Positions 8,088 through 14,920 of a stretch of DNA of 32,448 nt are shown here, one piece after another. The DNA is from Acetomicrobium sp. S15 = DSM 107314. Its GTDB lineage: Bacteria > Synergistota > Synergistia > Synergistales > Thermosynergistaceae. The notes below the pieces were generated by a model. That model was not told the origin of the DNA. It saw only the letters and a list, made by a program, of their open reading frames with translations, and did not search any database. The position numbers and the translations under genes are program-made. How positions within the stretch are numbered: position 1 is the first letter of the stretch; each line of letters starts with the position of its first letter. The stretch is taken from NCBI RefSeq assembly GCF_016125955.1, contig NZ_JADEVE010000174.1:1-32448 (forward strand). Direction: 5' to 3'.

Positions 8088-9008
8088 CTATAGAAAATGC
8101 CAACAAGCTACTTTGCGCCCAAAGGAGGCATTCTCAAAGGGTGGCGAGACATCACATTTGTCAAAGCTTTCGGGGCAGAAAGGCAAAAAAGGACAACTTC
8201 CTTCTTTTTTGGGCGCGCCTCGTCGCCGCGCGGCTGCCTCTAACGGTTTGCCGAGGCGTGGCAGGGCGGAGGCGAGCGCTTTCGTGTAAGGGTGTATCGG
8301 ATTTTCTATGATGGCATTACTGGGTCCTTCCTCGCATGGATTCCCTTGGAAGAGGACCAAGCCCCTCTCGGTTATTGCCTTAGCTAAGAGGAGATCGTGA
8401 GTTACGAACAAGAGGGCCATCCCTTTTTTTATTCTTCTCTTTAACACCTCGAGAACATCCCACCTCGTAGAAGCATCCTGCATAGAAGTGGGCTCGTCCG
8501 CCAGGAGCAGTTCGGGCTCGAGCACAAGGGCCCTGGCGATGGCCACCCTCTGACGCTGTCCCCCCGAAAGGCCATCGCGGAGGGAACTTTTGAACATATC
8601 GCGGTCAATGTTAAGTTCCTCGAGAAGCGAAGTCGCTTTTTCTTTCGCTTCTTTCGTTGAACCGTGGACAAGCTGCCACACTTCAGCCACTGCATCTTCT
8701 ACGCTCAAAGTGGGTGGCAGAGAGCCGTATGGATCCTGAGCCACATAACCGCAACGACGGCGCGCGCTCCTTCGCTTTGCCGCTTCGACTGAATGGAGGT
8801 CAGTGTCAAATAGCAGGGCCTCACCTTCGCTGGGTGCTACCAATCCGAGAAGCGCCCTCAGCAGCGTAGTTTTGCCGCTTCCTGATTCGCCTATTATGGC
8901 AAGGCTTCCACCTAAGGGCAGAACGAAATCGATGCCGTGCAGCGCCCACGTTGCCTCTTTCCCTTTGCCGAAGAACACGCGGAGGTTTTTTACGCAAGCG
9001 GCGTTCAT
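8088..9008 (-). CDS. Oligopeptide ABC transporter ATPase, DppF/OppF type
   Basis: The 306-aa cytoplasmic ATPase energises peptide import. Walker A is GESGSGKTT, the signature is LSGGQRQRVAIARAL, Walker B is LLLADEP and the switch His is in FVTHD. The C-terminal oligopeptide/dipeptide (HPY) extension is present: NPIHPYTKAL, then a cysteine-bearing tail (CPFLPFCPESFDKC and a final AC) typical of OppF/DppF. The D-loop reads EPTSMQD instead of the usual EPTSALD, a small oddity. The ATG at 9008 overlaps the stop of the partner ATPase (ATGA), so the two are translationally coupled. It is the last gene of the five-gene operon; no strong terminator is seen downstream. Confidence 0.93.
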   Translation of the reverse strand: MNAACVKNLRVFFGKGKEATWALHGIDFVLPLGGSLAIIGESGSGKTTLLRALLGLVAPSEGEALLFDTDLHSVEAAKRRSARRRCGYVAQDPYGSLPPTLSVEDAVAEVWQLVHGSTKEAKEKATSLLEELNIDRDMFKSSLRDGLSGGQRQRVAIARALVLEPELLLADEPTSMQDASTRWDVLEVLKRRIKKGMALLFVTHDLLLAKAITERGLVLFQGNPCEEGPSNAIIENPIHPYTKALASALPRLGKPLEAAARRRGAPKKEGSCPFLPFCPESFDKCDVSPPFENASFGRKVACWHFL

Positions 9009-9784
9009 GGTCCGACCTCCAACTTTTTTAGCGCAGCTATCAGCACTTTTGTGTGGTGGTGCCGTGGGCTCTCTATGAGCTCAAGCGGCTCTCCTTGTTC
9101 CACAATTGTGCCGTCGTGCATAACGGCGATCCTGTCGCTCAATCCGGAGGCCAGCGGCAGATCGTGCGTGACAAGGAGAAGCCCCATGTCTCTTTCTATC
9201 ACCAGGCGAAGCAGGAGTTTTGTGATTTCCGCTTGCACGATTACGTCCAGAGCGGTCGTCGGCTCGTCCGCCAGGAGATAATTCGGATTACAGGCCAAGG
9301 CCATCGCTATTGCAGCACGCTGTCTTTGCCCTCCTGAGAGTTGGTGGGGATAGCGGGATGAGAAATTGGCGGGGAGTTCGACTTCTTCCAACAGCGATGC
9401 CGCCTTTCTCTTGGCATCAGCCTTGTTGATGCCAAGGTGCACCTCCATGGGTTCCGCTATTTGGGAGCCTATCGTTATGACCGGCGTGAGAGCGTTCATG
9501 GAACCCTGGGGCACCAGCGAGATCTTGTGCCAGCGCAGTTTACGGAATTCCTCATCGGATAATCCTAAAGCGTTTTTGTCATCTAAAAAAACTTGCCCGG
9601 AGATGCTTGTTCCGTAGGGAAGGAGGCGTAACAGAGCGAGGAGCAGCGTGCTTTTGCCGCTTCCCGATTCCCCCACGACGGAGACAACTTCGCCTCGGCG
9701 AACATCCAGGCTCACGCCGCGCAGGGCTTCGACGGATCGCTTTTCTCCATGATAGGCGACGCAAAGGTCTTTTATTGAAATCAT
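9005..9784 (-). CDS. Oligopeptide ABC transporter ATPase, DppD/OppD type (short)
   Basis: The product is 259 aa when started at the ATG at 9784, which overlaps the upstream permease stop as ATGA and has AGGAGG 9 bases before it. Walker A is GESGSGKST (38-46), the signature is LSGGQRQRAAIAMAL, Walker B is YLLADEP, the D-loop is TTALD and the switch His is in LVTHD. It lacks the C-terminal HPY/cysteine extension usual in DppD (about 320 aa), ending soon after ESPRHHHTKVLI. It should form the heterodimer with the DppF-type subunit. The open frame continues far upstream of 9784 inside the permease gene, but that part has no ATPase homology. Confidence 0.92.
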   Translation of the reverse strand: MISIKDLCVAYHGEKRSVEALRGVSLDVRRGEVVSVVGESGSGKSTLLLALLRLLPYGTSISGQVFLDDKNALGLSDEEFRKLRWHKISLVPQGSMNALTPVITIGSQIAEPMEVHLGINKADAKRKAASLLEEVELPANFSSRYPHQLSGGQRQRAAIAMALACNPNYLLADEPTTALDVIVQAEITKLLLRLVIERDMGLLLVTHDLPLASGLSDRIAVMHDGTIVEQGEPLELIESPRHHHTKVLIAALKKLEVGP

Positions 9785-10974
9785 AACGCTTTCCTCCTGA
9801 GCCGCGGGTCCAGAATTTCCTCGAGGTGCCGGCCGAGGTCTAAAAAGACGAGACACAACCCTGCTATGCCAAATCCGGGAGGCAGGATGAGCCACCATGC
9901 GCCACTTGTAAAGGCTCCAAATGAGTGGGCCTCGTGAAGCATTCTTCCCCACGATACGAGCCGCGGGTCGGAGAGCCCCAAAAAAGACAGGCCGGCCTCC
10001 GCCAAGACCGCTCCCGGTACTCCCAGAGCGATGTTGGCCAGGAGCAATGGCAGCGCTTCCGGCAAGAGATGGCGCCACAATATATAAGAAGAGGGAGCAC
10101 CGAGGGCGCGCAGGCCCTCTACGAAGGTAGCCTCTCTCAGGCTTAACGTCATAGATCTCACGGTGCGAGCGGTGGACATCCATGAGAAGGCTGAAAGTAT
10201 CAAGATGAGGTTGAACAGTCCTTTGCCCCACAATCCGGCCAGCACTATCATGATGGGAAGGGTCGGTATGGATAAGAGCACATCGACCGCCCTCATTATA
10301 ATGGCGTCGATGATCCCACCGAAGTAACCGCTCGAAAGTCCGAAGGCGAGCCCCAGCGCTGTAGCTATAAACGTGGCCGAAAGCCCTACCAGAAGCGACA
10401 CCCTGATGCCCAATACGAAGAGGTGAAATACGTCACGCCCTCTCTGGTCTGTTCCCAAAAGCCCCCATCGGTTTCCAGGAACCTGGAGTGTCAATGAAAC
10501 CTCATTCGGCGGTTCGCTGCTCTCGAGGCGCAATGCGTACTCTCCGGGGGCGGGAAAGAGATGAAGTATGGGGTTTTGAAAGGGAGAAAGCCCAAGTGCG
10601 AGCTTGAAAGACACATCCCTGGTGTCGAGATCTATCTGGCTTCCTGCCTTTTTAGAGGCGTCGTAGAGCACTATCGTTTCCTTAGGCGTCTCCCACATGA
10701 TACGTGCAACCTCGGGCGGCGCCTCGAAGCGTATTGCGCCTTTTAAAGAAAAGCGCAGCGGCGGCTCATATTCCCAAAGGAAACGCCTTTCGAGTTGCTC
10801 CTTTGTTATCATCAGGTGCAGACTGGGAGGGGCATCCTTGGCGAGCCAGATCGGCTTTACGAAGGGGGGTGCCACTGCCTCATCCGGTGAGGCCTTGAAG
10901 AGGTGCGGTCCGATCGCAGCGAGGATTATGCCGAGCGCCAGGGTCCAAAAGCTCCACCGACGCAATAACCTCAT
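9781..10974 (-). CDS. Oligopeptide ABC transporter permease, DppC type, with enlarged periplasmic segment
   Basis: The 397-aa inner-membrane protein is about 100 residues longer than usual DppC/OppC (about 280-300 aa). After the first membrane segment (about 8-25), residues about 28-165 form a long hydrophilic segment expected in the periplasm. Only then comes the family motif LLGTDQRGRDVF and five further membrane segments. The EAA loop that contacts the ATPase is visible around EGLRALGAPSSYILWRHLLP. The ATG at 10974 overlaps the stop of the DppB-type gene, and its own stop overlaps the next ATPase start. With DppB it forms the membrane channel. The extra segment, rich in beta-like stretches and prolines, may contact the unusual binding protein of this operon (inference). 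Confidence 0.92.
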   Translation of the reverse strand: MRLLRRWSFWTLALGIILAAIGPHLFKASPDEAVAPPFVKPIWLAKDAPPSLHLMITKEQLERRFLWEYEPPLRFSLKGAIRFEAPPEVARIMWETPKETIVLYDASKKAGSQIDLDTRDVSFKLALGLSPFQNPILHLFPAPGEYALRLESSEPPNEVSLTLQVPGNRWGLLGTDQRGRDVFHLFVLGIRVSLLVGLSATFIATALGLAFGLSSGYFGGIIDAIIMRAVDVLLSIPTLPIMIVLAGLWGKGLFNLILILSAFSWMSTARTVRSMTLSLREATFVEGLRALGAPSSYILWRHLLPEALPLLLANIALGVPGAVLAEAGLSFLGLSDPRLVSWGRMLHEAHSFGAFTSGAWWLILPPGFGIAGLCLVFLDLGRHLEEILDPRLRRKAL

Positions 10975-11948
10975 CGCTCCATCTTCCTCTCAATGCCTAT
11001 ACGAGGATCGACGAAGCCGTAGGCGAGGTCGGCCAGGAGGTTAGAGATCACGGTGAGCAACGCCAATAAAAAGAAGGCGGCGCCTGCGGCTGGGTAGTCT
11101 TGTCCCGTCACGGATTCGAGCAGAAATCGCCCCACGCCGTGAAGAGAGAAGACTGTCTCTGTTATCACGGCTCCCGATACCACCCCGGGCAGCGACAGGA
11201 AAATTATCGTGACTATGGGTGGTAATACGGAGCGAAAGGCGTGACGCCACAAGATCAAGTTTTGTGGCAACCCCTTGGCCCTCGCCAAAAATATAAAATC
11301 TTCACCCAAAACCTTCACCATGAGGTTTCTGACGTATAAGGCCCAGGAGCCGAAGCCCAAAATGACGAGTGAAGAAACAGGTAGGGTCATGTGCCAGATG
11401 TAGTCGATCATTGCGGGCCAACCTGGAGGCGGCGGAGGGATAGAGATACTTCCCCTCAAAGGAAATATTGGTACGGCAAAGGCGAAAAGCAAGAGCATCA
11501 CGAGCTGTATAAAAAAGGAGGGAAAGGAAAAGGATATCGCTCCCGCCCAGAGCACCAACCTCTCGACAAGCCCTCCGCGCTTTGCCGCTGCGATCACACC
11601 GAGGTATATCCCCAACAGGGCTGAAATGGCCATTGCTGAGCCGAGCAGAATGAGCGTGTTAGGGAGGCGGCTTCTTATTTCATCCCATACAGGCCTCTGA
11701 CTCAAAAACGAGACGCCGAAGTTAAACGTGAGCATCTGCTTGACGTAGAGCAGAAATTGCTCGCCCATAGGGCGATCCAGGCCGAAGAGGGCAGCCAGCT
11801 CCTCCTTGGCCTGGGGAGAAAAGCGAGGGTCGATGATCGCGCTCACCGGGTCTCCCGGGAGTATGCGGAAGAGAAAGAAGTTTAATATCAACACGACGGC
11901 GAGGACCAAAAACGATGAGGCGATTCTGCGACCCCAATATGTCTTCAA
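10971..11948 (-). CDS. Oligopeptide ABC transporter permease, DppB type
   Basis: The 325-aa membrane protein has the standard length and features: an N-terminal segment followed by FRILPGDPVSAI, six membrane helices, an EAA loop (VLGEDFIFLARAKGLPQNLI) and a C-terminal DPRIG. It pairs with the DppC-type protein to form the peptide channel. The start is TTG at 11948, with GAGGTGAAG upstream, 6 bases after the stop of the binding-protein gene. Its stop TGA lies within the ATG of the next gene, indicating coupled translation. Confidence 0.93.
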   Translation of the reverse strand: MKTYWGRRIASSFLVLAVVLILNFFLFRILPGDPVSAIIDPRFSPQAKEELAALFGLDRPMGEQFLLYVKQMLTFNFGVSFLSQRPVWDEIRSRLPNTLILLGSAMAISALLGIYLGVIAAAKRGGLVERLVLWAGAISFSFPSFFIQLVMLLLFAFAVPIFPLRGSISIPPPPPGWPAMIDYIWHMTLPVSSLVILGFGSWALYVRNLMVKVLGEDFIFLARAKGLPQNLILWRHAFRSVLPPIVTIIFLSLPGVVSGAVITETVFSLHGVGRFLLESVTGQDYPAAGAAFFLLALLTVISNLLADLAYGFVDPRIGIERKMER

Positions 11949-11954
11949 TGTGCT

Positions 11955-13619
11955 TCACCTCGGCATGAGCCAAAAGAGGTCGTTTCGGACCAGACGGACA
12001 TACTCGCCTTGTCGGTATTCGCTAAAAGCGAACGGGCCCGTTCCGACCAACATGGTGAGGTTTCTTTTTTGCGGGTGGATCATCCTACTGGGTTGCCATA
12101 TTTGCCAACTCTCCAATGAGGCGAGCTGCCACGCCGGGAGGATCGGGAGCCCGCCGATCTGGTGGAGGTGCCAATAGCTCGTATTCTTCATCGTGATAGT
12201 TATTTCATAGTCGCCCTTGACGACCGCCGTGTCGACGTCGCTCACGGCATCCCAGAAGCGCGGCACGCGGTGTTCTTTCAAGAATGAGATCGTCGCCGCT
12301 ACGTCTTTGGCTGTAAAGGGCTTGCCGTCCTGCCAGAGCACGTCGTCTCTCAAGAGAAACGATAGGCATGTTACCTGTCCATTGCCTGAGGGAACGGTTT
12401 CCACTTTCCATTCCTTAGCGAGCCAGGGTAGATCTTTTAGTGTCTCTGGGTCTGAGGTTAAAAGCGCGTCGTATATAAGGCCCAAGACTTGCCAATCATA
12501 GGCGGAGCTCGCGGTGAACGGGTTTAGGTTGCGCGGTTCTTCCGGCAAGCACCAATAGAAAGGACGCATCTTTCCCTCTGGCTCCATGGCAAGCAGGCTC
12601 CAAAGGTTGTCAGCCGTAGCAATTTGGGTGGTTACGGCCCCTTTCCATTCTTTGCGCAAAGCCGTAACGAAGTAGCGTGAGTAGATGGGAACCATTGGGA
12701 CTTTCTCCAGCAGAAGCTCTTGGGCGCGCCTGGCAGCGGACCTGGCATCTTCTTCGTCTGGAGCCCATCGCAACGCCTCAAGGGCGGCGTCTAACTCGTC
12801 GTCATGGATGCCGCAGATATTATAGCCGCCTTTTACATCCATAGAGGAATGAAAGAAGGCGTAAAGGCTATCAGGGTCGCGAGACAGTTGCCACGCTAAT
12901 ACATATGAGTCAAAGGTATGCTCGTCGAGTCTGGCTATGAGTGTGGAAAAATCCACGGGCTCTACCTCTATGGGCAAACCCAACTCCCTCAACGAGGCGG
13001 CGACTCGCTGTGCCAGCTCGGCCGTCGTGGGAGCCACCTGGGCCGTGGGGGAGAGGATCCTCATGGGTTTAAGCGGCAAATCTTCGCCCGGGGGAACTAG
13101 GAGGCCATTGCTGTATCGCCATCCCGCTTCCTGCAAAGTCCTGCGGGCACCTTCCAAATCATAGGGCGGCGTTTCGAGATCTCCGGCGCAGTAAGGTGAA
13201 GCTGGCGGCAAAAACGTGGAGAGAGGCGCGGAGTAACCGGAAAATATGTCTCTGACGAATTGATTTCTGGGAATGGCCTGCCATATCGCCCGGCGCAGTT
13301 CAACTTTGTTCCAGGGGGCCTTCCTGATGTTGAAGCCTAAGAAGAAGGCGTGAAAGCCTTGAGCGAGAGAAAGAGAAAGCTCTTTGTTGGAGGCGAGGCG
13401 TTCGATGTCGACGGGGCGCGTGATGTCTGAAAGCAAGTCTACCTGCCCCTTTTCCAGCGCCAGCAGTTGAGCGTCTGGGTCTCTTATGATGACCAAATAT
13501 AGCTCTTCTATCTTTGGCCCGCGGATCGCGCTTACGTCCACCCCGCATGCTGCCGTCACAAAAATCGCAATGCTGCATACCACAAGGGCGACGCTTTTTA
13601 GAAACCGCTTGGCGAACAT
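11955..13619 (-). CDS. Oligopeptide ABC transporter substrate-binding protein, apparently circularly permuted SBP_bac_5
   Basis: The 554-aa exported protein starts at the ATG at 13619 (GGGAGAGG upstream) and has a signal sequence ending VTAAC, so it is probably a lipoprotein at Cys25. The family order is reversed. Residues about 33-340 carry what is normally the second half: GPKIEELYLVI, ALEKGQVDLL, FNIRKAPWNKVELRRAI, FLPPASPYC, YDLEGARRTLQEAGW, FDSYVLAWQLSRDPDSLY and the late VPMVPIYSRYFVTALRKEW. Residues about 350-554 then carry what is normally the first half: PRNLNPF, LGLIYDALL, LPWLAKEWKVE, LLRDDVLWQDGKPFTAKDV, VGTGPF and finally NDLFW. In ordinary DppA/OppA the segment after GTGPF...YW continues directly into G-KP-ID, which here is at the N-terminus. 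The protein thus seems complete but permuted. It heads the transporter operon. Confidence 0.9.
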   Translation of the reverse strand: MFAKRFLKSVALVVCSIAIFVTAACGVDVSAIRGPKIEELYLVIIRDPDAQLLALEKGQVDLLSDITRPVDIERLASNKELSLSLAQGFHAFFLGFNIRKAPWNKVELRRAIWQAIPRNQFVRDIFSGYSAPLSTFLPPASPYCAGDLETPPYDLEGARRTLQEAGWRYSNGLLVPPGEDLPLKPMRILSPTAQVAPTTAELAQRVAASLRELGLPIEVEPVDFSTLIARLDEHTFDSYVLAWQLSRDPDSLYAFFHSSMDVKGGYNICGIHDDELDAALEALRWAPDEEDARSAARRAQELLLEKVPMVPIYSRYFVTALRKEWKGAVTTQIATADNLWSLLAMEPEGKMRPFYWCLPEEPRNLNPFTASSAYDWQVLGLIYDALLTSDPETLKDLPWLAKEWKVETVPSGNGQVTCLSFLLRDDVLWQDGKPFTAKDVAATISFLKEHRVPRFWDAVSDVDTAVVKGDYEITITMKNTSYWHLHQIGGLPILPAWQLASLESWQIWQPSRMIHPQKRNLTMLVGTGPFAFSEYRQGEYVRLVRNDLFWLMPR

Positions 13620-13668
13620 ATGGTTCCTCTCCCTCTTGAAGGTCATGTCATTTGAAGACAGCCTTTAT

Positions 13669-13699: not shown

Positions 13700-13795
13700 C
13701 TCTTTCTCTCAAGCATTTTTGGCTCTAAGTCTTCATTGGAAAGCGCTGACATTATTCGACGACGCATGGGCGTAAAGCACGACGAGGTGACGCGC

Positions 13796-14920
13796 GTGGA
13801 ACGCAAAGTCGTATGCACCAAATTCTGGCAGATTGTGGAGATCTTGAAAAGCCTCGATGCGCATGAAGGCGTGTGCATAATCCCTATAGGCGCTCAAGGG
13901 TCCGGTAAGAGCACACTTGGGCGGAGGCTCAAAGTCGCCTTGGGCGATGTCGATGTGATATCGCCCGATGCCATACGTATGAGGCTGTATAAGAAAGCCC
14001 ATCCCGAAGAAGAGCGGGTTGACTACGGAAAAGTCTGGAATTGGCTGACTGAGACGAACAAACACGAACTGGTGAGGAAGATAGCCAAGGAGAGGTTCGC
14101 AAAGAATGTCGCCCGCTTCGTATATATAGATCAAATGAACCTGACGCGCAGAGGCCGTCGCCCCTTCCTTTTGACCGACAGACTCAAGGTTGCCATATAC
14201 TTTCATCTCGATGAAGAGACCTTGCTCGAGCGGCACAGGCGGCGTTCTGACAAAGCAGCTCATATACCGGAGGCGGCCGTTTTAGTCAATCACAGGAAGG
14301 CGGAAGAACCGACAGAAGAGGAAGGCTTTGACCTCATCATCAATTATTACGTGGACGAGCACAAAAGGCCTCATCTCTCGAAGTGTTATACTGTCAAAAA
14401 GGGGGTGTCAGGCGTGCAAAGGTCTATTGAGATTCTGGAGTTCGCCATGAAGATGGAACTTGAGGCCAGAGACTTCTACAGAGAGAGCGGAGATAGGGTG
14501 GCGAGAGACGATGTGAAGCGCCTCCTCTCCCGCTTGGCAAAATGGGAGGAATCTCACCATCGCTTCTTAAAAGAACAGAGAGATCGCCTAAAAAGCGGCG
14601 CAGGGTGGGATGCCAGTGCCATTCTTTTGGACGTGAGTGAGGCCCGAGATATCTTAGAGCGGCCGTGGAAGGGTAGGGGAGTCGAACCGCCTCTGAGCGA
14701 GGAGGCCTCGGATTTCAGCGTAATCCGCATGGCTTTGGGGATGGAGACCGACTTTCGAAATTTCTATCTGAAAGCGGCTGCCAACACCGATGATCCGGAT
14801 GGTAAAGCGGTCTTGGCGAAACTCGCCGATTGGGAGGGCGAACATCAAAAGATCATTGACGAGCAATATCGCCAGTTGCACCAAGATTTTATGGCTCAGA
14901 TGGGCTTCGCTCCATTCTAA
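13796..14920 (+). CDS. P-loop kinase fused to diiron ferritin-like (rubrerythrin-type) domain
   Basis: The product is 374 aa from the GTG at 13796, which has GAGGTG 6 bases upstream; ATG 13766 and TTG 13736 are alternatives without a ribosome site. Residues about 25-195 form a nucleotide kinase of the AAA_33/zeta-toxin/polynucleotide-kinase kind: Walker A GAQGSGKST (32-40), SPDAIRMRLY after strand 2, VYIDQMNLTRRGR, and an Arg-rich lid HRRRSDK. Residues about 205-365 form a four-helix ferritin-like domain with a full diiron set: Glu221, E251-x-x-H254, Glu317 and E347-x-x-H350. The frame runs through both without a break. GGGGGTG at 14401-14407 lies 6 bases before an in-frame GTG (14414), so a separate 168-aa ferritin-like protein may also be made. 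Substrate and role are unknown. Confidence 0.82.
   Translation: MERKVVCTKFWQIVEILKSLDAHEGVCIIPIGAQGSGKSTLGRRLKVALGDVDVISPDAIRMRLYKKAHPEEERVDYGKVWNWLTETNKHELVRKIAKERFAKNVARFVYIDQMNLTRRGRRPFLLTDRLKVAIYFHLDEETLLERHRRRSDKAAHIPEAAVLVNHRKAEEPTEEEGFDLIINYYVDEHKRPHLSKCYTVKKGVSGVQRSIEILEFAMKMELEARDFYRESGDRVARDDVKRLLSRLAKWEESHHRFLKEQRDRLKSGAGWDASAILLDVSEARDILERPWKGRGVEPPLSEEASDFSVIRMALGMETDFRNFYLKAAANTDDPDGKAVLAKLADWEGEHQKIIDEQYRQLHQDFMAQMGFAPF

Follow-up and report, generated by a model that had tools for sequence, protein, structure and literature searches.

The gene at the head of a Dpp/Opp operon in Acetomicrobium sp. S15 = DSM 107314 raises the question of whether a complete peptide-type solute-binding protein (SBP) can exist in nature with its segments in rotated order, and how such a protein would have arisen and would work. 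The gene lies in a stretch of 32,448 nucleotides of contig NZ_JADEVE010000174.1, which is called the window here. It is on the minus strand, the plus strand across 11955-13619 being interrupted by stops. The frame is open from an ATG at 13646 (13646-11955, 563 amino acids). The likely start is M10, the ATG at 13619 (MFAKRF...), with a good ribosome-binding site, GAGGGAGAGGA, directly 5' of it, and given this start the coordinates 11955-13619 of the preliminary description are right. Residues are numbered on the 563-residue frame, in which residue 33 of that description is residue 42.

Segment order of the window protein

We name the canonical order of the SBP segments A-B-C; this order is absent from the window protein, which reads B-C-A. 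By its sequence, the signal region (13548-13619, minus strand as for all parts of the gene) ends in VTAAC and is either lipoprotein-like or carries an SPase I site, AxA. Alignments with phmmer and PF00496 define three segments behind it. Segment B, the canonical middle, comes first (residues 43-186, 13089-13520, GPKIEEL...GLLVPPG), followed by the canonically C-terminal segment C (residues 187-352, 12591-13088, ...PMRILSPTAQ...LWSLL). A joint or linker, AMEPEGKMRPFYWCLPEEPR (residues 353-372, 12531-12590), then connects the old C- and N-termini, and the canonically N-terminal segment A comes last (residues 373-559, 11970-12530, NLNPF...NDLFW). The motif order on which the permutation had been proposed was recovered in full, with GPKIEEL at residue 43, EKGQVDLL at 65, FNIRKAPW at 105 and IYSRYFVTALRKEW at 321, followed by NLNPF at 373, LIYDALL at 390, WLAKEWKVE at 408, WQDGKPFTAKDV at 438, VGTGPF at 534 and NDLFW at 555.

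The PF00496 profile matches the window protein in two stretches with a total of 201 bits against a cut-off of 32.4. The larger stretch, residues 44-267, corresponds to profile positions 146-363, and on the DNA positions 146-363 come first and positions 4-141 second. Both halves thus match the profile in reversed order, as had been predicted, and the possibility that they stand in the normal order after all did not hold. With phmmer, residues 44-261 align to positions 189-407 of E. coli NikA and residues 388-559 to its positions 30-185. In a rotation scan against the E. coli MG1655 sequences of NikA, DppA, GsiB and OppA, the global score was maximal for all four references when the window protein was cut at 338-370, and the rotated scores exceeded those of the native order 1.5-1.7 times (NikA 314 vs 183, DppA 294 vs 195, GsiB 188 vs 124, OppA 129 vs 77), while composition-shuffled sequences reached about 20 ± 6 as their best score over rotations. 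The rotated order is far beyond chance, and the rotation restores full-length family 5 homology, as the preliminary description had expected from joining the two ends. The window gene is thereby confirmed as encoding a naturally circularly permuted SBP of PF00496, cluster C (DppA/OppA/NikA type).

The mature protein was modelled by AlphaFold2 as a single confident domain (pLDDT 88.8, pTM 0.87), and as modelled the permuted protein keeps one complete fold. A sequential Foldseek comparison of this model with the PDB, with AppA, DppA and NikA among the top matches, aligned about 310 of 530 columns in order at a TM-score of about 0.5, as expected for a permutant. Each segment occurs once, the length is normal, the segment trees described below agree and one fold is modelled; the earlier view of a whole rearranged domain rather than a fusion or truncation is supported.

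Distribution, a second cyclic order and known permutants

Orthologues in other Synergistota, which the preliminary description had suggested looking for, are widespread, and the permuted family is an old one. A full-length single-copy B-C-A orthologue with 44-91% identity was present in 108 of the 188 sampled genomes of the phylum at a threshold of 1e-60 or better, several on single-contig assemblies, and a joint-profile search placed a B-C-A SBP in 107 of the 188. All B-C-A members tested (30/30) match PF00496. Permuted SBPs also occur in Bacillota, where 32 of 349 sampled genomes carry one (24 B-C-A, 7 C-A-B, 1 unclassified), and plasmid records contained no relative at E 1e-25. Comparison with the sister species gave a dN of 0.046 and a dS of 0.43 (dN/dS about 0.11), with a linker dN of 0; the B-C-A SBP is under strong purifying selection. 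Two orthologues are split into two frames (G027:C43:107-1595, locus L038, and G131:C1:1106300-1107924) by a frameshift or an in-frame stop, and pseudogenes or sequencing errors are both possible. A simple scan found a recognisable lipobox in 4 of 74 B-C-A proteins, and most members appear from their sequences to have ordinary signal peptides.

The same genome encodes a second permuted SBP (G000:C273:49617-51299; locus L082:13614-15293, minus strand) with the order C-A-B, in which PF00496 positions 281-366 lie ahead of positions 2-287. Its cut falls between B and C, that of the B-C-A form between A and B. AlphaFold2 modelled it with a pLDDT of 91.6 and a pTM of 0.87; sequential Foldseek aligned about 340-400 columns of this model to PDB entries. 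No listed PDB match aligned full length to either model, so neither permuted order was seen in a solved structure. The C-A-B gene, too, stands at the head of a separate B-C-D-F operon, behind which lie two genes that are M20-type peptidase-like by sequence, and C-A-B operons elsewhere sometimes include M20-type peptidase, Asp/Glu racemase or S9-like genes. A search of the phylum's 187 other sampled genomes found no further C-A-B SBP, but full-length homologues occur in Bacillus (L094), Mesobacillus, Tissierellia, Myxococcota-assigned MAGs (L096, L098 and L099) and Alphaproteobacteria (Stappia, L101), a distribution suggesting that the C-A-B gene was laterally transferred. The two permuted forms share the modelled fold class, the C-to-A joint and the position at the head of Dpp/Opp operons, but the C-A-B form is spread more widely and more sparsely. 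With these two and the canonical A-B-C order, each of the three possible cyclic orders is represented in nature.

Once rotated, the B-C-A protein is homologous over the whole domain to the PF00496 SBPs DppA, OppA, AppA, NikA and GsiB, with which it shares the OppBCDF partners and the modelled fold class; it differs from them in the order, in the termini between A and B and in an OppC partner with an extra domain. The closest known parallel is TpMglB-2 (Tp0684) of Treponema pallidum, a circularly permuted glucose-binding lipoprotein of cluster B, designated "cluster Bc" (PMC4990184). It is likewise a natural permutant of an ABC-importer SBP, found in many species and encoded beside a permease and an ATPase, but it belongs to an unrelated family and has a cluster B (type I) fold, a sugar ligand and a different cut. 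Assignment of the window protein to cluster Bc was rejected, all its top fold and sequence matches being of cluster C. Membrane tethering, which was suggested as the reason for the permutation of TpMglB-2 (PMC4990184), is not favoured for the B-C-A proteins, given the lipobox count of 4 in 74. Permutation as such is a common phenomenon; the PDZ domain, for example, exists in four forms (PMC12667903) and like the permuted SBPs shows one fold in several cyclic orders, but it is a small domain. The main text of that study (CIRPIN) does not mention solute-binding proteins (PMC12667903). No report of circular permutation in family 5/cluster C SBPs was found in the open-access literature searched, in line with the preliminary description, which knew of no described case in this family. 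Natural SBP permutation is thus known from cluster B, and what is added here is cluster C, two permuted orders and the OppC domain.

That a large (about 530 residues), mobile, transporter-coupled protein survives naturally in all three cyclic orders is rare enough to make the set useful. Circular permutation is routinely engineered; here nature offers matched experiments for testing whether folding, export, tethering or docking to the ABC transporter depends on chain order and the position of the termini. Profile-based annotation calls the permuted proteins ordinary SBPs, as PF00496 is passed with two split matches.

The operon, the OppC domain and the ligand

In the window, the SBP gene is followed on the minus strand by oppB/dppB (10971-11948; PF00528 and PF19300), encoding the cognate translocator, an unusually long oppC/dppC (9781-10974), and the ATPase genes oppD (9005-9784, 259 amino acids from the start MISIKDL) and oppF (8088-9008; ABC_tran and oligo_HPY). 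In the loci read, including those of Bacillota, the B-C-A gene heads the series SBP-oppB-oppC-oppD-oppF unless the contig or the fetched stretch ends. The window OppC has 397 amino acids, whereas E. coli OppC-type proteins have 277-303, and an extra domain of about 147 residues (10456-10896) lies between TM1 and the permease core. At B-C-A loci the OppC frames have 133-270 residues after TM1 in 49 of 50 cases, the fiftieth belonging to a neighbouring operon, as against 26-27 in all 21 C-A-B operons and 22-28 in four E. coli OppC-type proteins. The invariant residues of the domain are P11, P15, W17, D91, R93, D94 and G145, and searches returned no Pfam relative and no convincing PDB relative.

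Of the phylum's 188 sampled genomes, 106 have the extra domain, 105 together with the B-C-A SBP and 1 without it. A further 3 genomes have the SBP only and 79 have neither; these counts are not phylogenetically independent, and the co-occurrence arises partly because both genes are inherited in one operon. Nevertheless, a docking role is plausible, as C-A-B and canonical operons lack the domain. The P2 loop of MalF is the docking surface for MalE, and by analogy the OppC domain is perhaps a docking module for the B-C-A SBP. The permuted SBP would then work with an OppC that has gained an extracytoplasmic domain, possibly as a docking surface for a binding protein with relocated termini, and the domain can be tested as a possible new contact between SBP and permease.

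The window SBP most likely serves an importer as its capture subunit, for small solutes of the peptide, opine or metal-chelate class. It would be exported, fold as a normal two-lobed clamp, capture its solute and deliver it to OppBC. At the positions of R383 and D436 of DppA, the pair mutated in structure 8z1z (one of the Foldseek matches), R or D was found in 0 of 30 B-C-A rows, although the local alignment is uncertain. Given this lack of conservation, a dipeptide bound in the manner of DppA is probably not the ligand. No conserved neighbouring gene was found outside SBP-BCDF at the B-C-A operons, so the context does not name the substrate. As a single-copy gene it occurs in most of the families sampled from its order, in several of them almost universally, which makes the B-C-A gene a good target for substrate finding.

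The divergent neighbour of the operon in the window (13736-14920, plus strand) encodes an unusual fusion of AAA_33 (P-loop kinase-like) and rubrerythrin/ferritin-like domains, with a weak PADLOC match to VakA.

Origin of the permuted forms

The joint between the old termini has a median length of 21 amino acids in both B-C-A and C-A-B proteins, and the alignment across it is gap-free near EP-x-G. A profile match of the linker alone gave E = 0.12, the linker being too short for significance; with 6 and 4 flanking residues it reached E = 1.4e-6, a signal due in part to the flanks, which are homologous anyway. Scored against a C-A joint-block profile, permuted proteins from intact genes reached about 300-530 bits across the whole model and some divergent ones 230-270 bits; canonical SBPs matched half of the model with at most about 126 bits. 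In the IQ-TREE analysis of 76 rows rotated to A-B-C, with a modest canonical sample of 23 rows, the B-C-A clade received support of 100/100 and the C-A-B clade of 100/97. The two grouped together with 100/98, apart from one canonical row on a long branch, and a constraint uniting the permuted rows was not rejected (p-AU 0.29). The trees of the single segments gave the same split (support 92 for A, 74 for B and 91 for C). The divergent canonical-order SBP beside the C-A-B clade (L062:1306-3015, genome G167) may be the closest relative that is not permuted, or a permuted form that reverted; its position may also be due to its long branch.

The grouping of the permuted forms and their common joint of about 21 residues indicate that the joint was probably formed once, and the simplest history that these sequences suggest is that one joint formed and the termini then changed a second time. 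The best explanation of the locus, to which we assign a probability of about 0.9, is a permuted SBP of a Dpp/Opp/Nik-type importer, with a joint that was probably formed once and an OppC that carries an extra domain. We hold more tentatively, and at somewhat less than even odds, the fuller account in which at least two serial permutations used one joint and two cuts, all three orders are functional, two of them within one genome, and the B-C-A termini co-evolved with a docking domain of OppC.

The principal competitor is two independent permutations of different canonical SBPs that converged on the same terminus-to-terminus joint. The old termini are close in the canonical fold, so that a short joint would be the only easy one, the linker by itself has no significant similarity and one canonical row adjoins the C-A-B clade; yet the permuted forms unite in the combined tree, with the exception of that long-branch row, and in each segment tree, and their linkers agree in median length and gap-free placement, which leaves convergence unlikely. 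The order of the segments alone would also suit a chimera in which the C-terminal part of one SBP was fused to the N-terminal part of another, both truncated, in imitation of a rotation; a chimera was considered by the authors of TpMglB-2 for their protein (PMC4990184). Against it stand the shared phylogeny of A, B and C, the presence of each segment once at a normal total length and the single confident modelled fold, and we regard such a fusion as highly improbable.

Hardly more credit is due to the idea that the B-C-A protein has become a sensor, a decoy or otherwise something other than a transport SBP. The lack of conservation at the ligand-anchor positions of DppA would fit such a role, but in the phylum and in Bacillota alike the loci that were read have the gene at the head of a complete BCDF operon, and its strong purifying selection also counts against the idea, so that a non-transport role is very unlikely. 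An artefact of assembly or annotation, by which two SBP genes or contigs would have been misjoined and their order reversed, had been named as the outcome that would undo the proposal, and the home assembly does consist of 438 contigs. However, over 100 genomes, each assembled independently, show the same order, and the window contig agrees with the sister species at 91% identity. Full-length orthologues in 108 of the 188 genomes of the phylum, single-contig assemblies included, and in Bacillota exclude that two SBP genes were joined in assembly, and the chance of an artefact of any kind is negligible.

In the B-C-A form the old C- and N-termini are linked by about 21 residues and the new termini lie in the A/B loop (canonically ...rN..YW|..PkI...); we hypothesize that this joint arose in one ancestor, probably by way of a tandem-duplicated gene. 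Further trimming or a second permutation would then have produced the two cyclic orders B-C-A and C-A-B. The route proposed in the preliminary description, tandem duplication followed by loss of the outer halves, is compatible with the data, but its A-B-C-A-B-C intermediate was not among the fetched loci. Four long frames of 852-894 amino acids (L040-L043) were considered as such intermediates and rejected, being normal-order SBPs with an open upstream frame. Two Bacillota loci, L190 and L191, carry two separate B-C-A genes in tandem ahead of one oppBC, an arrangement from which further permutation could arise.
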